Assembly: GCA_932294295.1 (NCBI GenBank)
Contig: OW028574.1
Coordinates: forward strand, 31,628,145 to 31,692,144
DNA from: Alitta virens
Lineage: Eukaryota; Annelida; Polychaeta; Phyllodocida; Nereididae
Reading direction: 5' to 3'
Length of the DNA stretch: 64,000 nt
Part shown: positions 2,127 through 37,450 of the stretch, in pieces
Numbering within the stretch: the first letter of the stretch is position 1
Layout of the letters: each line of letters opens with the position of its first letter
The notes under the pieces: model-generated
Databases searched by the model: none
Told to the model about the DNA's origin: nothing
What the model saw: only the letters and a program-made list of their open reading frames with translations
Made by a program: the position numbers and the translations under genes

Positions 2127-2153
2127 AGGGCCTATCTCACATAGACGAGTGAC
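2127..2153 (+). repeat. Harbinger copy 1 left terminal inverted repeat
   Basis: AGGGCCTATCTCACATAG followed by ACGAGTGAC. It aligns over about 27 bp with the inward-read right end of copy 2 (AGCCCCGTTCCCACATAG then CCGAGTTAC). Preceded by TAA at 2124-2126. A second CGAGTGA follows at once, as in related MITEs. Confidence 0.75.
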
Positions 2154-2179
2154 AATGCCGAGTGATGCTGAGTGCCTCA

Positions 2180-2900
2180 TAAATCAGGCAGTCAGGAATA
2201 CTCGGCTTTGCACGCCGATGAGCAGATGAGAACCCAGTTTGGGAAGCTTGTGAAAGTGGGACCTTCGGGATCTGGGACCAAGATGCTGACAGCCAGGGAG
2301 CAGTGGATAGTGCATACCTTCAGCTGGTTGACTAACTTCATCCGCAAATGCCGACCAGGCAAGGCAGAAGTACCTTGAGTGAACGCCTAGCTAGAGAGAG
2401 AAAGAAGGATGGTGATTACCCTCTGAGCTCAACTTCTATGGACAGTGAACCAGAGCTAGAAGATTCCATCATCATCCCAGATGAGGATCGTTCCAGGACA
2501 ACTACAACTGCTACAGCCCCCAATTTTCTGCTCCTTCAAAGGGTGGTCCATTCAAGAGGAAAAAGAGACATACTTGTGAACCTGGCAAAAAAGAAGAAGT
2601 CCTGCACATAGTGAAGAAGATGGGTGATGTGACCTCCTCTGTCCATGAACACTATGCTCGGAAGGTGGACCTTGACCCTGCCTCAGCTGCTAAGCGTACC
2701 TTTTGTGACTCAATTTACCATGAGAGTCTCACCCTCCCTGAAGATCTCTGGATGGACTTTCAGACCCAGGCCTTCACTCTACTGATGCAAGCCAAGCAGC
2801 AGGCCAGACTCAGGATGATGGCTCCTCAACAATTTCACCAAGTCCCACAGCAGCAGCAGCACTATCATCAACTCCCTCAGCAGTTTTTCAAGGCCACCTT
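2180..2900 (+). pseudogene. Harbinger MADF/Myb-like DNA-binding protein, broken
   Basis: Three overlapping reading frames together resemble the C-terminal two thirds of the intact protein at 30341-31990. Frame 1 (2172-2378) has GKLVKVGPSGSGTK and EQWIVHTFSWLTNFI, matching GKLVRQGPSGTAKR and ELWIISNFGFLVDHI. Frame 2 (2348-2611) has RSTLSERLARERK and an acidic serine-rich linker. Frame 3 (2611-3006) ends in a glutamine/histidine-rich tail. The N-terminal tail and first half of the DNA-binding domain are deleted. At least two frameshifts and loss of the normal stop make this a pseudogene. In Harbinger elements this protein binds DNA and helps bring transposase to the ends and the nucleus. Confidence 0.8.
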
Positions 2901-2948
2901 TTTCAAGGCCACCTTTTTCAAGGCCACCAAATCCTCCCAAGAGAGCAT
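2885..2948 (+). terminator. degenerate histone-type 3' end of the MADF pseudogene
   Basis: Counterpart of the stem-loop at 32016-32052. Here a 15-bp unit TTTTTCAAGGCCACC is tandemly triplicated, so the 5' arm GGCCTT is interrupted and the perfect 6-bp stem is lost. Downstream CCACCAAATCCTCCCAAGAG and the purine-rich AAGAGAGC are kept. Local slippage probably inactivated it. Confidence 0.6.
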
Positions 2949-3006
2949 ACCATTAACACATTTGTGGCTGACTGCTTATATATTGCCAAAATTGTATTCA
3001 GATTGA

Positions 3007-3653: not shown

Positions 3654-3795
3654 TAGTAGTAGTAGTAGTGGTAGTAGTAGTAGTTAGTAGTAGTTAGTAG
3701 TAGTTATTAGTAGTTATTAGTAGTAGTAGTTATTAGAAGTAGTAGTAGTTATTAGTAGTAGTAGTAGTAGTTATTAGTAGTAGTTATTAGTAGCA
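3156..3795. repeat. 640-bp (TAG)n / (TGG)n microsatellite
   Basis: Long imperfect trinucleotide tract, TAG with interspersed TGG, TTAG and TAT variants. It gives spurious poly-Val and poly-Ser ORFs on + and poly-Tyr on -. It sits exactly in the spacer between the two convergent Harbinger genes, where copy 2 holds an unrelated hairpin array. Confidence 0.95.
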
Positions 3796-3813
3796 CAAAT
3801 GTGTTCATGGTTT

Positions 3814-3851
3814 GCTCTCTTGGGAGGATTTGGGTGGCCTTTAAAAAGGCC
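3814..3851 (-). terminator. histone-type stem-loop and downstream element after transposase, copy 1
   Basis: Read on the minus strand: GGCCTT-TTTA-AAGGCC (3851-3836), then ACCCA, then AAGAGAGC (3821-3814) 14 nt after the stem. This fits the metazoan histone mRNA 3' consensus as I know it (GGYYYU-UHUH-ARRRCC-ACCCA plus a U7-paired purine element). Relative to copy 2 the loop ends in A instead of C, and both are allowed. The transposase ORF now reads through it because the stop is lost, probably by slippage in the adjacent A9 run. Confidence 0.7.
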
Positions 3852-3855
3852 AGGT

Positions 3856-5151
3856 TTTTTTTTTGCTGCCTTCTCACTTCAAATCTTGTCTTCTTGCCGG
3901 GGACACTTCCTGATGAAGAATTGAAGTAATTAACCAAGTACAGCCTGTGTTCCTTGGCTATCCTGGTGGAAAAGATTCCTCTCGCAGGTGCCCCAATGTC
4001 ATGCATGTTGCCAATCTCCCTCCAGCTCCCAGGGACAACATCATGTGTGTCAGGTGCCTCCTGATCCATCACTCGAGTGTCATTTGGTGAAGGATATCTC
4101 TTCCTAATCAGGTTGTGGAGGCAACAGCAAGCCAGTACAATTGAAGTCACATTGACTGGTGTTTGTGGCATGGTGGTCAGGAGACATCTGAATCTGTTGG
4201 CCAAAAGACCAAATGAATTCTCTACAACTCTTCTTCCTCGGGACAATCTGTAATTGTAGATACGTTGCAGCCTTGTGAGACCCCTCTGTGGGATGGGCTT
4301 CATCAACCAGGTCCTGAGAGGGAAGGCTTCATCTCCCACAATGAAGTATGGCACGTTTCTGTCACCATTTAGTAGAGCTTCAGGAGGAGGTATCCCAAGA
4401 CTTCCATCTTCCAAGGCTTTTCTCAAGTCAGTTCTGGCAAACACACCTCCATCAGAGCCTGCACCATTGGAGTCCATGTCCACATAGAGAAATTGATAGT
4501 TAGTATCCACAAGAGCCATCAGGACAATGGAGAAGAAGCCCTTGTAGTTGCAGTACACAGACACTGAATTTGGAGGACACTTGATAGCCACATGTTTCCC
4601 ATCTGATGCTCCAACACAATGAGGCAAGTTCCACCGCGAGGCGAAGAGGTCGGCATTCCTGCCAATCTTCTGGAGTAATGGGAAAGGAGAGAAGTTCAAC
4701 ACTGTAAACTTGGATGATGGCCTCACAAACTTCAGGGACAAAATTACAAATGGTATTTCCAGCCATACTGAAGTGACATGTAGCTGTTCCCTGTTGCTAT
4801 GTACCTCAAGGTGATGGCAAGCTTTAGGCCAGGTTCTAAAGCTTTCCTCCAGAAAGTATCTTGCTTCTCTATGAGGGGTCCAACTTTTTCAAGCAACTCA
4901 CTGAACAAGGCTGGATCAACTCTCATGAAGTTCTTGAAGGATGCCACATCTTCATTCTCCAATTCCTTCATTAACTTCTCATACTGGCCATACATTGGTC
5001 TTCTGAGGAGCCAAGGTCTTGTCCAATACCTTTTCTTCTTTGCCTTTCTTTCCTTCTTCCACCTTTCGTGAAGCAGCAATGATGCCACTGCTAAGTTGGT
5101 ATTTACCATAGTAAGTAGCATCAAGTCTTTCTCATCCATAGGCCTCTCCAT
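3856..5151 (-). pseudogene. PIF/Harbinger DDE transposase, frameshifted
   Basis: Clearly homologous to the intact 441-aa transposase at 32724-34049. Start chosen at 5151 (MERPMDEKD), not the upstream ATG at 5193, because it aligns with the copy 2 start and lies about 55 bp after a TATA box. Recognisable blocks: RPWLLRRPMYGQYEKL near the N terminus, then PHCVGASDGKHVAIKC (first catalytic Asp), FLYVDMDSNGAGSDGGVF (second Asp), and RRVVENSFGLLANRFR (Glu). Frameshifts near 4745 and 4665 split it into three frames and the normal stop is lost. All three catalytic residues can still be read, but no functional protein can be made. Confidence 0.85.
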
Positions 5152-5204
5152 GGTGACTCCTGTGTAGACTACTGCCAAATGTAGCCAGAACACACATTCA
5201 GGCC

Positions 5205-29928: not shown

Positions 29929-30262
29929 ATGGTCCCTGATTGTTATTTATGTAATAGACGTTTACTGAGACATTCACTTTTCCTACAATGCTGTTATTGT
30001 AGTGGAGTAGCGCATCTTAAATGCCTGCCGTATATATCCAGAACAGATACACTTTTCTCTGAAAGAGCTCATAATAAATGGTTATGTACTCGTTGTACTG
30101 CAACCGAACTCCCTTTTAACCATTATGATAATGATAATGATTTCCTGCAGGTGTTGTCCGAGGCTTGGTCAAGTTTGAACACATGTCCTTTGACACTTTT
30201 CCCTAATTTGACCCTCAATCCTTTTGAACTTAATGAGGATGAGTTTGATTCTCCCATTTTTG
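29929..30262 (+). pseudogene. LINE ORF N-terminal part with PHD zinc finger
   Basis: Eight zinc ligands in C4HC3 order are visible: C5, C8, C21, C24, H29, C32, C53 and C56, with WLCTRC at the end, which is the PHD-type pattern. LPFNHYDNDNDF follows, as in PHD-bearing LINE ORFs. In these elements the finger precedes the endonuclease and may target chromatin. LINE-like sequence stops about DHV (30262), where Harbinger DNA begins. Starts at ATG 29929; an upstream start cannot be excluded. The open frame runs on to 30411 by chance. Confidence 0.75.
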
Positions 30263-30340
30263 ACCATGTGATCAGGGGATCATTCAGCATTTTGCTAACA
30301 CACATAGAAGACCAAAAGACGGCTCCAGAAATTTTTTATC

Positions 30341-31990
30341 ATGCCGATGAAAAAGACCAGGTTCGCCAAAAGGCCTGCAGTGGACACAGAACTATCTGCT
30401 GGATCTTCTGATGACTCTGAAAACCCGACAAAGACATCGCAGAAGACTGTTCTTCCTGTGAAGAAAATGAAGAAGTCTGCTCCAAGATCTCCTGTCAAGA
30501 GGACTACTGCTGCTGCAAGATCTCCTGCCAAGAGGACTGCTGCTGCAAGATCTCCTGGCAAGAAGACTGCTGCTGCTGCAAGATCTCCTGCCAAGAGGAC
30601 TACTGCTGCTGCAAGATCTCCTGCCAAGAGGACTGCTGCTGCAAGATCTCCTGCCAAGAGGACTGCCAAGACGCGTCTGCCAGTGCCAACAAGAACGTCA
30701 TCAGATGCTGGCAGTAGTAATGATGAGCCCCAGGTTGCTACTCCTGCGTCTGCTGCAGCACCTGCTACTTCTTCGCCTGCACCTGCTCCTTCGCCTGCTC
30801 CTTCGCCTGTTCCTTCGCCTGCTCCTTCGCCTGCTTCTTCGCCTGTTCCTTCGCCTGCTCCCTCGCCTGCTACTTCACCTGCTACGTCCGAAGTGCCTGC
30901 TACACTTTCCTATGTTGCCAGGAAAAAACAGGAAAAGTTGTTCCTGCCAGCCACTGATGAGCAGGATATCGCTGACTGGTTTAGAGACCATCCCATTTTT
31001 TATGAATGGACCTTGAAAGCCTACAAGGATTCAGGCAAGAAAATGGCCCTCATCAATGAGATGGCAAGGAAACTGAGTGTCCCCTGCACTGGATACCAAT
31101 TGAAGACCTGGATGGAATCCATGCGGACTGTCGCAGGGAAACTAGTGCGGCAGGGACCATCTGGAACTGCGAAGAGGAACCCCACAGAGAAGGAGTTGTG
31201 GATTATATCGAATTTTGGATTCCTTGTGGACCACATTACACGTATTCCAAGTCGCCGGGGGAACACTGCCCTCCAGAAGAAAATTGGCAAGGCACGGGAG
31301 ACACTTAAAAATCTCGAGGAAGAAGAAGGGAGCTCTACTCCAGCTGATGATTCCGGGCCCCAGGAAATTTCTGATCCGGACATTTCTATGGATATCCCTC
31401 CTGTCCGGCAGACGAAGGGTGGTCCATACAAGAAAAGGAAAAGGTCCACGCCACCGCAATCTGGCATAGAAAATCTTGTTAACATTGCCAGACAGTCTAC
31501 TGGAGTCATCCAGCAGACTATGCAGCAAATGGCCGTTCCTCCAAAGGATTTGAAGGAGAGGCGAATCCGGGCGATGGGGGAGTTCATTGTCATGGAATGC
31601 CTGTCCATGGATGATGAAGCATTTGAAGACCTGCACAGCAACCTGATCCCCACATTCATGCAGCTCAAAGCGAATGCCATTAGAGCCAGGTTCCAGCTGC
31701 AGCATCAACCCCAGCATCAACCTCAGCAATTCATGCAGCACCAGCAGCATCACCAGCAGCATCACCAGCAGCAGCACCAGCAGCAGCACCAGCAGCACCA
31801 GCAGCAGCACCAGTTCTATCCTCCTTCTGGGTCCCAGCATCAGGTGCACTTCCCACCAATGATAAGTCCAGAAAAGAATTGGCCAGCGGGAACCTCAGCA
31901 ATGCCTCCTTCCAGACCTCCATCCATGATTTCCGAGATTCCCACAACTTCAACTCCTGCTTTGAACATAAGCCAGTTTTTGAATGTTTGA
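30341..31990 (+). CDS. Harbinger MADF/Myb-like DNA-binding protein with histone-like tail
   Basis: 549 aa, intronless. Order of regions: residues 1-48 basic/acidic start; about 50-113 six SPxK units (SPVKR, SPAKR, SPGKK, SPAKR x3) separated by TAAAAR-type spacers, like the S/T-P-x-K tails of linker and sperm histones; about 145-185 SPAP/SPVP proline repeat; about 204-300 a MADF/SANT-like trihelix with ADWFRDHPIFYEWTLKAYKD, LSVPCTGYQLKTWMESMR and ELWIISNFGFLVDHI; 300-450 acidic linker and a basic KKRKR signal; about 453-492 Q/H-rich. In PIF/Harbinger this protein binds the ends and carries transposase to the nucleus. The stop (31988) lies 25 nt before a histone-type stem-loop. No TATA is visible upstream. 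Alternative reading as a host gene is unlikely given the convergent transposase. Confidence 0.85.
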   Translation: MPMKKTRFAKRPAVDTELSAGSSDDSENPTKTSQKTVLPVKKMKKSAPRSPVKRTTAAARSPAKRTAAARSPGKKTAAAARSPAKRTTAAARSPAKRTAAARSPAKRTAKTRLPVPTRTSSDAGSSNDEPQVATPASAAAPATSSPAPAPSPAPSPVPSPAPSPASSPVPSPAPSPATSPATSEVPATLSYVARKKQEKLFLPATDEQDIADWFRDHPIFYEWTLKAYKDSGKKMALINEMARKLSVPCTGYQLKTWMESMRTVAGKLVRQGPSGTAKRNPTEKELWIISNFGFLVDHITRIPSRRGNTALQKKIGKARETLKNLEEEEGSSTPADDSGPQEISDPDISMDIPPVRQTKGGPYKKRKRSTPPQSGIENLVNIARQSTGVIQQTMQQMAVPPKDLKERRIRAMGEFIVMECLSMDDEAFEDLHSNLIPTFMQLKANAIRARFQLQHQPQHQPQQFMQHQQHHQQHHQQQHQQQHQQHQQQHQFYPPSGSQHQVHFPPMISPEKNWPAGTSAMPPSRPPSMISEIPTTSTPALNISQFLNV

Positions 31991-32015
31991 AGACAACAGT
32001 TTTAAAACCATCCCC

Positions 32016-32052
32016 GGCCTTTTTCAAGGCCACCAAATCCTCCCAAAAGAGC
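32016..32052 (+). terminator. histone-type 3' stem-loop and downstream element (MADF gene)
   Basis: GGCCTT-TTTC-AAGGCC at 32016-32031, followed by ACCA, then AAAAGAGC at 32045-32052. It fits the animal histone stem-loop consensus GGYYYU-UHUH-ARRRCC at every position. AAAAGAGC is complementary to the GCUCUUUU stretch I recall in mammalian U7 snRNA. Spacing (25 nt after the stop, 13 nt from stem to purine element) is in the range of real histone genes. No AATAAA follows before the spacer. Confidence 0.75.
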
Positions 32053-32292
32053 ACGCCTTGTACACATATCTGTGTATAAACAATCAATCAAAAAAAAAAG
32101 TTCCAAAACCCTCCAAACTTTTCTCTATCTTTGTCCACGAAAGTATAATATTTTAGTCCAAAATCAATTTCTTCACATCAAGTAACTTGTTCATATTTCC
32201 TTTTCATTACAGCACAAATATTGGTCCATTTTTTTGTAATATTTCTTTTAATAAGGGTTAATAATTTTGATGAAAGAAGACATACTTTTTTT
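32053..32292. other. Harbinger copy 2 spacer, left part
   Basis: AT-rich, with an A10 tract near 32090; no coding sense. Confidence 0.5.
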
Positions 32293-32600
32293 GGTTCAGA
32301 AGTGCCGTAGTTTTTTCTTGTTCAGAAGTGCCGTACTTTTTTTTTGTTCAGAAGTGCCGTAGTTGTGTCTTGTTCAGAAGTGCCGTATTATTTTTTTTGC
32401 TTCAGAACTGCCGTAGTTTTTTCTATTATACTGCAATGAAAATAATGAAAGTACGGCACTTCTGAACAAGAAACAACTACGGCAGTTCTGAAGCAAAAAA
32501 AATAATACGGCACTTCTGAACAAGAAACAACTACGGCAGTTCTGAACAAAAAAAAAGTACGGCACTTCTGAACAACCAACAACTACGGCACTTCTGAACC
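32293..32600. repeat. 308-bp inverted array of a 15-bp unit
   Basis: Unit TTCAGAASTGCCGTA occurs five times on + (starts 32295, 32321, 32347, 32373, 32401) and six times inverted (starts 32452, 32478, 32506, 32532, 32558, 32584), separated by T-rich or A-rich linkers. The outer 18 bp, GGTTCAGAAGTGCCGTAG and its complement, are perfect. The whole can fold as a long hairpin. It may be a MITE inserted in the spacer or a structure of the element itself. Confidence 0.95.
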
Positions 32601-32666
32601 AATAAAATATTTTGTGTGGGTCAGACAGGAACTTTTTTTTTATTACACAAGAAGTGTACATGGTCT

Positions 32667-32703
32667 GCTCTTTTGGGAGGATTTGGTGGCCTTGAAAAAG
32701 GCC
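32667..32703 (-). terminator. histone-type 3' stem-loop and downstream element (transposase gene)
   Basis: Read on minus: GGCCTT-TTTC-AAGGCC (32703-32688), ACCA, then AAAAGAGC (32674-32667). It starts 20 nt after the transposase stop. The 42 bp from CCCCGG to AGAGCA are identical to 32012-32053 in opposite orientation, so each convergent gene has the motif in its own sense strand. An AATAAA lies farther down (about 32637-32642) and could be a back-up polyadenylation signal. Confidence 0.78.
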
Positions 32704-32723
32704 GGGGTTGTTTTGTGGAATCT

Positions 32724-34049
32724 TTATACCATGTCATCTTGCCATGGCACTCTTCCTTCTTCTGAATTGACAAAGTCCACCAAGTACTGCCGTTGATTCT
32801 TGGCTGCTTCAGTCATAGAATGCCCTCTATTTGTTGGTGGCATTTCATCGATTTCTCCAGCTGCCCTCCAAGTTCCTGGGATGATACGATGTGTGATTGG
32901 ATCTTCATGGTCCAGCATGATGTTCTGAGCAGTCGGATAAGTTATTCTCATCAGATTGTGGAGGCAGCAACATGCAATGACTATGGATTCCACTGTCTTA
33001 GTTCTTTGTGGCATGGTAGTCAGGAGACACCTGAACCTTGCTGCAAGGATCCCAAATGCGTTTTCCACAATTCTTCTTGCCCGGGAGAGGCAGTAATTGT
33101 ATATCCTCTGCTCTTTGGTCATGTTTCTGAGAGGCAGTGGCTTCATCAGCCAGGTTCTCAAGGGGAAGGCATCATCTCCAACAATGAAGTAGGGAAGAGG
33201 TCTGTGACCAGGAAGAATTGGTTCAGGTGGAGGTAATCCAATGGTCCCTTCTTCAAGTCCTTCTCTCAGGAGTGTATCATTAAAAACTCCTCCATCAGAT
33301 CCAGCGCCGTTTGCTCCACAGTCTACATAGAGGAACTTGTAATCAGCATCCACAAGAGCCATGAGTACGATGGAATGGAAGCCCTTGTAATTGAAATACA
33401 CTGAACCACCTTTTGGAGGACATTTGATGGCCACATGCTTCCCATCAATGGCTCCAATACAGTGAGGAAAGTTCCACCTTGAATAGAACAGTTTCGCAAC
33501 TTCTCTCCACTCTTCTGCAGTTGTGGGGCATGCCAGGACCTCTTCATTATACTCCGCAATGATGGCTTCACAGACTTCTCGAATTATCTTGCTGATGGTA
33601 TTGTAAGCCACTCTGAAGCCATACATGAGGGACCTGTAGCTGTTTCCAGTTGCCAAATAGCGGAGGGTGATGGCAAGTCTGAGTCCTGGCTCCAAAGATT
33701 TCCTCCAGAAGGTGTCTTCTTTGGTAATCCTATGACCTATTTTGCCAAGGATCCCTTGAAACATGGCTGGTTCCATTCTCAAAAAGTTAGTATAACTAGA
33801 AGTGTCCTCTTGCATCAGTTCAGTCAGTAGACGCTCATACTGTCCCATCTGAGGTCTTCTCAGCAGCCAGGGCCTCACCCAACACCTCCTCCTCCTCTTC
33901 CTCCTCATGGCTGCTAATTTTCTTTCTTCTTTCTTCTTACTCTCCTCATCCTCAAGTAATGCTGCTGCAACAACAGCAAGTTGCAGATTCGCATGAGCAG
34001 CTAGTAGTACCAAGACTCTATTCTGATGTTCTGTCTGATGCATGTCCAT
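32724..34049 (-). CDS. PIF/Harbinger DDE transposase, intact
   Basis: 441 aa, intronless, nuclear; cuts and joins transposon ends at TWA targets together with the MADF protein. Basic N-terminal region (KKEERKLAAMRRKRRRR, 39-55), WLLRRP, helix-turn-helix-like segment about 120-163 (ITLRYLATGNSYRSLMYGF), then the nuclease fold: FPHCIGAIDGKH (D202), LYVDCGANGAGSDGGVF (D243) and RRIVENAFGILAARF (E329), with YFIVGDDAFPL between them, all typical of the family. Length and motifs are normal and no lesion is seen. Either of two ATGs (34049 or 34043) could start it; the first is used. A TATA box lies about 57 bp upstream, and a histone-type 3' signal 20 nt after the stop. Confidence 0.92.
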   Translation of the reverse strand: MDMHQTEHQNRVLVLLAAHANLQLAVVAAALLEDEESKKKEERKLAAMRRKRRRRCWVRPWLLRRPQMGQYERLLTELMQEDTSSYTNFLRMEPAMFQGILGKIGHRITKEDTFWRKSLEPGLRLAITLRYLATGNSYRSLMYGFRVAYNTISKIIREVCEAIIAEYNEEVLACPTTAEEWREVAKLFYSRWNFPHCIGAIDGKHVAIKCPPKGGSVYFNYKGFHSIVLMALVDADYKFLYVDCGANGAGSDGGVFNDTLLREGLEEGTIGLPPPEPILPGHRPLPYFIVGDDAFPLRTWLMKPLPLRNMTKEQRIYNYCLSRARRIVENAFGILAARFRCLLTTMPQRTKTVESIVIACCCLHNLMRITYPTAQNIMLDHEDPITHRIIPGTWRAAGEIDEMPPTNRGHSMTEAAKNQRQYLVDFVNSEEGRVPWQDDMV

Positions 34050-34461: not shown

Positions 34462-34508
34462 TTACTACGAGTTGACTACGAGTAACTCGGCTATGTGGGA
34501 ACGGGGCT
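34462..34508 (-). repeat. Harbinger copy 2 right terminal inverted repeat
   Basis: Read inward (minus): AGCCCCGTTCCCACATAG, then CCGAGTTACTCG. TTA follows outside at 34509-34511. Matches the copy 1 left end over about 27 bp. Confidence 0.8.
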
Positions 34509-34511
34509 TTA

Positions 34512-37450
34512 CCTTCAAAATATAAGACAATGTGATTATTTTTTAGAAAACACATTTATAAAGAAATGTGAAGAATTGTCGATTAATAATGAATGTCTAT
34601 CATTTATTCATGTTAATATAAGAAGTATCCCTAAAAACTTGTGTTCTTTCTTGCACTATATTGACATGCTTAACCTCAACTTTACTGTCATAGGTATGGC
34701 AGAAACCTGGCTCTACGATGCTAATGTCCATTGTTTTGGGATAGAGAGCTATAACCACTTTTTTCAGTATAGAAAGGAACGCAGAGGAGGTGGTGTCTCA
34801 CTGTTTATACACAAAAAACTCTCTGTTAAGTGTAGGGAAGATCTCAATGTGAATCAAAGTTTCATGGAGGCAATTTTTGTTGAAATACCGAAAGATGAGA
34901 TTGGTACAAATAAAAGCATCATTGTTGGAACAATATACCGGCCACCTAATCAGGATGTTTCTATTTTTACAGATAGCCTGACTGAAATTTTACATAATAT
35001 AAGAAAAGAGGGAAAATTATTGTATATTATGGGAGATTTCAACATAAATCTTCTTGATACTGATAATCATATACCCAGCTTTGAATTTTTAGACAATATG
35101 TACTCTCTGTCTTTTTTTCCTCTTATTACAAAGCCTACCAGAATAACACAGAACACCTCTACCTTAATAGACAATATATTCATTAATGACATTAATAATA
35201 TACAAAGCTTTAGTGGTATCCTTTTTATAGGAATTACTGATCATTTTCCTGTTTTTTCCATTAAATATGGTACTAAAATATTGGAAAAGGTTTCATCCTA
35301 TAAGACCAGAATCCTGTCGCTCTCAAACATGGAATCTTTTGCAAATAAGTTAAGTCTTGAAAATTGGCAAGATGTATTAAGTTCTGATAATGGTTCTGAG
35401 ACATTTAAGCTGTTTTACACTAAATTCTGTACACTGTACGATAATGCCTTTCCAGTAAAACATGTGAAGACAGGTTACAAAACAAAAAAGATATGGTTGT
35501 CAGATGGTTTGCGAAAATCTATTAAAATTAAAAACAGAATGTACATGAAGCAACTAAGAAGCCCATGTGAAGAGTTTATAAGAGAATACAAAAGGTATAA
35601 ATCATGCCTCAACAGATTAATGCGCAATGCTGAAAGAAATCACTACAAAGATATTTTAGATAAAAATCGGAATAACACAAAGAAGTTGTGGGGAATCCTT
35701 AAAGATATCATCAATAAAAAAAAATCTACCACCAGACCCAAACAGTTTGTTATTGGTGATGAGGTTGTGACAAACGAAAATATCATTGCTGACAAATTTA
35801 ACGATTATTTCACCAATGTAGGAAGCAACTTGGCAGAGAAAATACCATCTGTTAATATAGACCCCATCACATACATACGTGGTTCATTTCCAAGTTCATT
35901 GTTCTTGCAAGATGTTGAAAGGTTTGAGGTAGAACGTATTATCAGGGCTCTCAAGCATAGCAGTGCTAGGTATGATGGCATCCATGCCAAAGTTCTTAAA
36001 CACATATATAGATTAATCATTGAGCCCCTTACCCATGTTTTACATCTATCTATCAGTCAAGGATTTTTTCCCAATGAAATGAAGTTAGCTAAAATTATAC
36101 CATTGTATAAATCGAGTGATACCATACATATAGGAAATTATCGGCCGGTATCAGTGTTACCTATCTTCTCCAAATTATTAGAAAGGCTGATGTACAATAG
36201 AGTTTTCTCTTTTATTAATATTAATAACATTTTGTACAAGTATCAATTTGGCTTTCGAGAAAAACATTCCACTAACCTAGCACTAATTACCCTAATAGAT
36301 AAAATAGCATCAGCAATAGACAATGGTGATATATTTTTAGGTGTATTTCTTGATTTAAAAAAAGCATTTGACACTGTGAATCATAACATTTTATTACACA
36401 AGTTATTCAAATATGGGATAAGAGGGATCGCATTTAATTGGTTTCAGGATTATTTAAGGGGCAGAAAACAATTTGTTTCATTTAATGATGCTGAGTCTTC
36501 TAGACTTACTATTAAATGTGGAGTGCCCCAAGGTTCCATACTCGGGCCTCTTCTTTTTTTTATTATATATTAACGATATTAAAGATGTTTCTAATGTTGT
36601 CACCCCTATTGTCTTTGCTGATGATAATAGTTTATTCATAAGGGGTGGTTCTGTAGAAGATACATTTTCTTCACTAAACCAAGAATTGATTAAGATTAAA
36701 GATTGGCTCGGCGCAAACAAATTATCATTGAATTTAGAAAAAACTCACTATATTGTGTTCAGGTCTGCCAGGAGCATAAGAGTTTTAAATGACAATATTT
36801 TAAAAATTGATAACTGCATAATTGAACGTGTCAAGCACATTAAATTTATCGGAGTTACAGTAGATGCTAAGTTAACATGGGTTAATCACATAAAATCAGT
36901 TAAAAGTAAAGTTGCTAAGGGTATAGGAGTCTTAGCTAAAGCAAGAAAATATGTTGATACTATGTCTTTAAATCTATTATACAATAGCATTATCTACTCT
37001 CATTTGAACTACTGTGTAGAAGTGTGGGGAAATGCTGCAAATATTCACATCAACTCTTTATTTAAGCTTCAAAAGAAGGCAGTAAGATTAATTAAAAATG
37101 CAAGTTTCATGGCTTCTACTGATCCCATATTCAAAAGTATGAAAAGTTTAAAACTAACTGATATTTTTGCCGTATGTACGTTAACCTTTGTTTTTAAATT
37201 TGTAAAGGGTATGTTACCAGAAGTATTCTATGAATTTTACAAGAGGAATAATAGAGTGATAAGTCGCCAAACTAGACAGTCAAATAAGTTATATATTCCC
37301 ATCGCTAAATCAGCATTGTATAAAAAAACTATACGAATTAATGGAGCAAAATATTGGAATAACATTGATGATATAATTGATTATAACTGCAGTCTGCATA
37401 CTTTCAAGAAGAGACTAAAAAATCATTTTATCAGTAAATTGTCCTCATAA
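34512..37450 (+). pseudogene. CR1-like LINE endonuclease-reverse transcriptase, one frameshift
   Basis: Continuation of the ORF started at 29929. Endonuclease motifs: [17 protein letters not shown] (catalytic Glu), [25 protein letters not shown] and GITDHFPV (terminal His). RT motifs: [65 protein letters not shown] (YADD box) and GANKLSLNLEKTHY. C-terminal block LNYCVEVWG and AKYWNNID. An extra T in a T8 run (36554-36561), just after GPLLF, shifts the frame; otherwise the rest is open to the stop at 37448. All catalytic residues remain, so this was a recently competent element apart from the Harbinger insertion and the slip. Confidence 0.9.

Follow-up and report, generated by a model that had tools for sequence, protein, structure and literature searches.

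Convergent genes of a Harbinger element and their ends

The window, by which we mean the whole 64-kb stretch of DNA analysed, contains an element, E1, with two convergent genes, each made up of one open frame. The gene on the forward strand (30341..31990) encodes a putative MADF/Myb-like partner protein of 549 aa, whose match to Pfam MADF (PF10545; 20.6 bits, E 5.8e-4) lies just below the cut-off of 22. The gene on the reverse strand (32724..34049) encodes a Harbinger transposase of 441 aa that matches Pfam DDE_Tnp_4 with an E-value of 5.4e-29. In its DDE_Tnp_4-type transposase and its convergent second gene, putatively of the Myb/SANT-like (MADF) kind, E1 resembles PIF/Harbinger elements, whereas it differs from PIF/Harbinger as known in having histone-type gene ends. 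A candidate right terminal repeat, AAAGCCCCGTTCCCACATAGCCGAGTTACTCG, is present at 34479..34510 on the reverse strand and resembles CACATAGNCGAGT, the left end of E2, a related element described below. No left partner of this candidate was found in E1 and no 3-bp target duplication was seen, E1 and E2 each offering one candidate end; the left end of E1 may have been lost. E1 apparently lies inside a LINE (window 29929-30411 and 34495-36573); by our reading, it is flanked by a PHD-like frame and, across the element, by a frame for an endonuclease/reverse transcriptase.

The MADF gene is followed by a histone-type stem-loop, GGCCTT-TTTC-AAGGCC, at 32016..32031 on the forward strand, 25 nt past the stop, and the transposase gene by its counterpart at 32688..32703 on the reverse strand, 20 nt past the stop. 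On the MADF side, ACCA (32032-32035), the linker AATCCTCCC (32036-32044) and AAAAGAGC (32045-32052), a purine element like the histone downstream element, come next. On the transposase side, in the reverse orientation, ACCA occupies 32687-32684, and the linker AATCCTCCC leads to AAAAGAGC at 32674-32667. A previous sequence-only reading of this locus had described both motifs, their fit to the histone consensus and their distances from the stops, and was accurate in all of these: in a pattern scan of the window, GGCCTTTTTCAAGGCC-ACCA was exact at 32016-32035 (+) and 32684-32703 (-), and 100 shuffles of the window gave no match to the stem-loop-ACCA motif. One distance required correction; the purine element, which had been placed 13 nt past ACCA, starts 9 nt past ACCA, corresponding to 13 nt past the stem.

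Both stems consist of 6 bp with a 4-nt loop, and none of 200 shuffles folded with equal stability for either arm, the stem of the MADF gene folding at -9 kcal/mol. The two motifs are not independent events within the element, as they lie in the arms of one inverted repeat (32005-32065 and 32654-32714, 92% identity), and gene conversion between the arms could keep both alike. Between the two stem-loops, at 32286-32607, there is a long foldback with 139-nt arms (95%) consisting of TTCAGAAGTGCCGTA-like units, which falls outside both predicted E1 mRNAs. Matches to plant miRNA families of Rfam in the region of 32.3-32.6 kb were rejected; all were below the cut-off and fell on this foldback, and we took them for an effect that any long hairpin would have.

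A decayed relative in the window

A second Harbinger element, E2, is present in decayed form at about 2.1-5.2 kb of the window, with CACATAGNCGAGT as its candidate left terminal repeat (2128..2163, forward strand). Its transposase remnant (3752..5193, reverse strand) is frameshifted and shares 68% DNA identity with E1 across 1102 aligned columns. The end of the E2 transposase gene (3812..3856, reverse strand) consists of GGCCTTTTTAAAGGCC-ACCC, a linker and AAGAGAGC; its loop is TTTA, and 7 of 200 shuffles folded equally well. On the other hand, the E2 MADF-gene end (2895..2950, forward strand) has been altered by a 15-nt tandem repeat that broke the 5' arm of the stem, with the purine element and linker retained, and a histone-type stem failed to form there on folding. 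The stem and loop consensus GGYYYU-UHUH-ARRRCC is thus fitted by both E1 arms and by the E2 transposase end, not by the broken E2 MADF arm. Following the stem, ACCA is found at the E1 ends and ACCC at the E2 transposase end. As for the purine element, the arms agree with each other within E1, and likewise within E2.

The ends were examined with the Rfam model RF00032 (Histone3) and with R1, a covariance model constructed from 21 other gene ends and the histone gene H2A.X described below, with no core histone included. RF00032 matched the two E1 ends with 30.7 bits (E 8e-5) and 28.8 bits (E 4e-4) over 64 kb and, as a third match, the E2 transposase end with 27.4 bits (E 0.0014); these three intact ends were the only matches in the window at E<=0.05. 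The E2 transposase end scored 79.8 bits with R1, a value that is not independent, this end being one of the 22 sequences used to build the model. The broken E2 MADF end scored 13.8 bits (E 3.1) with RF00032 and 62.6 bits with R1. A search with RF00032 had been suggested by the sequence-only reading; the E-values of the E1 ends were low, and no match in the window (best, 30.7 bits) reached the gathering score of 34.

Likeness to the histone gene ends of the host

A PF00125 search of the host genome (671 Mb; 54 matches, 77 of 77 candidates scored) located a core histone array on C12. One repeat unit of this array (L064) contains H2A, H2B, H3 and H4, with stem-loops 38, 30, 28 and 37 nt past the respective stops, together with a 5S rRNA gene (L064:3327-3445, reverse strand). 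The core histone ends consist of GGCCTTTTTCAAGGCC (with the loop TTTA in H4), ACC, AAATCCTCC and AAAGAGAGCAGACCATGTACACAT, with few differences among them. Five matches to RF00032 were found in this unit (one each for H2A, H3 and H4, and two for H2B), with scores of 24.5-27.0 bits. As the host core histones themselves fail to reach it, the RF00032 cut-off has no discriminating power in this host, and the sub-threshold scores of E1 are no counter-argument, genuine histone ends scoring lower still. In the complete 671-Mb genome RF00032 gave at least 67 matches, two of them above the cut-off (75 of 130,344 candidates scored), and the core histones were missing from this list because their scores were too low. 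Among 14 control genomes, one (Lactococcus lactis) also gave a match, below the cut-off. R1 recovered all five core histone ends in this unit, two of them from H2B, with E-values of 2e-23 to 6e-22. Applied to another 18 loci, which overlap in part and add up to 123,612 bases, R1 gave 15 matches, all of them ends that were already known.

The E1 ends were then compared directly with those of the core histones from the start of the stem to position +52. The E1 transposase end was identical to H2A, H2B, H3 and H4 at 48-49 of the 52 positions and the E1 MADF end at 46-47, the core histone ends being identical to each other at 49-50 of 52. This likeness covers the linker, the purine element and about 15 nt further, and in some ends a weaker ACAAAACAAC-like stretch is found upstream of the stem. 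It bears out the assignment of these ends to the histone type in the sequence-only reading. Another locus, L028, presumably harbours the H2A.X gene of the host, a name we gave it on account of its SQEY end. Like E1, it has a stem-loop, GGCCCTTTTCAGGGCC, followed by AAATCCTCCCAAAAGAGC, with one additional C after ACC; it differs from E1 at stem position 5, where C-G replaces T-A as a compensatory pair, and in its tail. Taken together, we consider it highly probable that E1 carries, at both of its genes, the 3'-end signal of the replication-dependent histone genes of its host, comprising the stem-loop, ACCA, the linker, a purine element of the U7-pairing type and a conserved tail.

Processing machinery and poly(A) signals

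The replication-dependent histone genes of animals form their 3' ends by way of SLBP and the U7 snRNP. An arrangement of stem-loop, ACCA and purine element yields an mRNA that is not polyadenylated. In histone mRNA, cleavage takes place 4-5 nt after the stem and is carried out by the U7 snRNP, according to PMC7026596. We used the human U7 sequence given in the same paper to examine pairing. Complementarity of the purine element to mammalian U7 had been proposed from the sequence, and the E1 elements indeed paired with human U7 in the expected place, with 4 and 2 of 1000 letter shuffles pairing as strongly. For the four ends in the window, 1-9 of 1000 shuffles were as strong with human U7, and the value for mouse H2a was 4. 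A U7 gene was not found in the host genome with RF00066, a model that also found nothing in 14 control genomes. As for SLBP, two matches in the host genome exceed the cut-off. They lie on one strand with 0.6 kb between them (C8:22055147-22055967), and we read them as two predicted exons of one gene.

We also considered the possibility that some of the element mRNA receives a poly(A) tail at a more distant downstream site, histone-type ends being formed mainly in replicating cells. Such mixed processing is compatible with E1 carrying the histone signal. Of 27 Harbinger ends, 9 had AATAAA or ATTAAA within 150 nt past the stem, among them the E1 transposase end, where AATAAA lies 43 nt past the stem and makes a backup poly(A) end possible. 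This frequency is little above that in random stretches of the window (25%), so that there is no clear enrichment, and the signal is absent from the other 18 ends. We regard mixed processing as having a modest chance of being correct.

Conservation of the signal among transposase copies

So close a likeness might also be explained by a histone 3' flank that was picked up in the past and does nothing for the elements. Between the transposase genes of E1 and E2, 47 of 110 fourfold sites were identical (43%; 47 of 111 in a separate comparison), whereas 35 of 39 positions were identical in the stem-loop block (90%; 35 of 38 in the separate comparison). In the 60 nt beyond the block, identity was 32 of 61. 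The block is conserved far above synonymous sites, which are near saturation between the E1 and E2 lineages.

The copies compared alongside this analysis, E2 excepted, had been reached via RF00032 and were biased towards good stem-loops. Thirteen distinct copies aligned into the C-terminal part (L031 and L043 being one locus), and all had the stem-loop; in L006 and L033, whose alignments end at aa 400 and 394, no stem-loop was found within the range examined. In order to remove the bias, a sample was chosen by protein. A transposase protein search of the host genome gave 95 copies scored among 2556 candidates, and the 3' ends of 60 were sampled, 26 at 81%, 8 at 90-93% and 26 at 96-99% protein identity. 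Of the 35 copies outside the sample, one was E1, 32 were at 98-99% and two ended before the C-terminus. The stem-loop was found in 59 of the 60 copies, 13-34 nt past the expected stop. The sole exception is the 99% copy L108 (G000:C2:40320830-40321040), in which a deletion at the repeat edge has taken out the stem-loop, so that the transposase end is fused with the MADF end. As the purine element, AAAAGAGC was present in 47 of the 59 copies, AAAACAGC in 10 and AACAGAGC in one, and in the remaining one the linker and element were lost. Several copies with AAAACAGC have stop-free frames. All 26 copies of the 81% group are identical across the block, and these counts represent copies rather than independent events.

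Comparison of further copies, with a test for co-variation of the stem positions, had been suggested from the sequence as a check. Covariation within Harbinger could not be used, since the stem is identical in all 59 copies. Among 22 gene ends, covariation was seen in one pair only (columns 11-18; U-A to C-G in 3 of 22), a weak signal from sequences that were themselves chosen by stem pattern. Relatives of the transposase were not confirmed in a search of genome contigs and viral contigs, and a motif pattern scan of the viral contigs matched five, roughly the number expected by chance on a rough estimate. A protein search with the partner gene gave one relative.

A passively carried flank would be consistent with the closeness of the likeness, with its extension about 15 nt past the purine element, accompanied by a weaker upstream likeness, which is the pattern expected of a captured piece, and with the many copies that are 98-99% identical and hence young. 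Against it speak a block that outlasts the near-saturation of synonymous sites and the presence of the stem-loop throughout the three identity groups and at both E1 genes. We consider passive carry-over improbable.

Other genes with the same type of ending

The histone-type signal was not confined to Harbinger, the RF00032 matches in the genome having led to further genes that end in it. It was found in a Polinton/Maverick-like element at L039 (G000:C9:25776000-25785500) and also at L017-L021, L038 and L040-L042. This element has genes for an integrase with rve and chromo domains and for a PC4-like protein; capsid-like and packaging-ATPase-like genes are also suggested by our reading of proteins that gave no Pfam match. 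The 10 loci had been fetched because of the signal; in all of them it follows a 103-aa gene, and in 6 of the 10 also a divergent gene, with a weak RING match far below the cut-off (E 0.0036). The end of the 103-aa gene is identical to those of the core histones at 49-51 of 52 positions. At L048/L057 (G000:C2, about 58.061 Mb), a fragment that reads as a MULE-like transposase has such an ending 39 nt past the stop, identical to the core histones at 44-45 of 53-55 positions. Similar ends occur at L032, L049 and L050, where no gene could be named.

Two further genes have ends that are clearly less histone-like. One is a multi-copy gene of 161 aa, SGNH-like by our reading and without a significant Pfam match, with the stem GGCCCTTTTAAGGGCC (L013-L015, L030, L034-L037, L054, L055 and L061-L063). 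Its end is identical to the core histones at 38-40 of 53-55 positions, and it sits in repeats common to the C7 and C8 copies, which extend over at least about 13 kb at about 99%. The other is a single gene of 131 aa at L016 (G000:C2:19287500-19290600), also without a Pfam match, whose end, GGCCCTTCTAAGGGCC followed by the same linker as in other ends, is identical to the core histones at 35-40 of 52-53 positions.

These genes bear on the possibility that the signal acts at the DNA level, the inverted repeat of 61-80 nt being a site of binding or folding in transposition and its histone likeness secondary. The arms do form an inverted repeat in E1, and the agreement of the purine elements within E1 and within E2 would fit such a function. 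However, the likeness is to host histone ends over 52 nt and in the sense of the genes, the Polinton-like genes diverge and have the signal each after its own stop, and at L014, L016 and L048 it occurs singly after a gene. A DNA-level role as the primary explanation is very unlikely. A coincidental fit to a short consensus, for which the RF00032 scores below the curated cut-off would speak, can practically be dismissed, being contradicted by the empty shuffles, by host histones that score lower, by the identity of 48-49 of 52 with those histones and by the 59 of 60 copies.

To our knowledge, histone-type ends on DNA transposons have not been described previously. No report of such ends on transposons or Polintons was present among the full-text literature matches listed, a body from which subscription literature is mostly absent. 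Considering all of these genes, we lean towards the view that several unrelated families of mobile DNA (Harbinger, Polinton/Maverick-like, MULE-like and at least one unnamed repeated gene) have each adopted the host histone terminator, which would make the histone pathway a common means of expression for mobile DNA dependent on replicating chromosomes. If this is the case, their transcripts would belong to the histone type of mRNA while coding for proteins other than histones.

Possible origin and role of the histone-type ends

The close likeness extends over a length, and into parts (the linker, the tail and the weak upstream stretch), that go beyond the demands of the consensus, and we presume that a histone gene is the probable source of the ending, by capture or by repeated renewal, perhaps through exchange, and that assembly from nothing is less likely. 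Capture would explain the likeness better than convergence, although much the same picture would arise if all of these genes had been selected for a broad signal specific to the host, the two being inseparable here.

The presence of the histone signal in E1 suggests that expression of the element is tied to the time at which DNA is copied. The histone-type ends would direct cleavage 4-5 nt past the stem and give rise to mRNA without poly(A), and the supply of transposase would be coupled to DNA replication in S phase. It is an old idea that movement in S phase raises the copy number of cut-and-paste elements. Such timing would be useful to a cut-and-paste transposon because moving during replication would let it gain copies, and, if our interpretation is correct, this idea gains a concrete molecular handle. 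Should the histone ending be in use in genes of transposons and virus-like elements, poly(A)-selected RNA-seq would have been blind to a part of mobile-element expression. It would also raise the question of how a host can silence elements equipped with the same terminator as its own essential histone genes.

E1 resembles replication-dependent histone genes of animals in that its stems have 6 bp and a 4-nt loop, are followed by ACCA and, at 13 nt, by a purine element, and stand close to the stop of a single open frame. Unlike histone genes, E1 encodes a transposase and a MADF protein and lies within a dispersed transposon. Some Harbinger MADF copies differ from histone genes in a further respect: the MADF-gene ends at L007, L011, L027, L029, L033 and L046 have two to four stem-loops in tandem, with the linker and purine element after the last one only.
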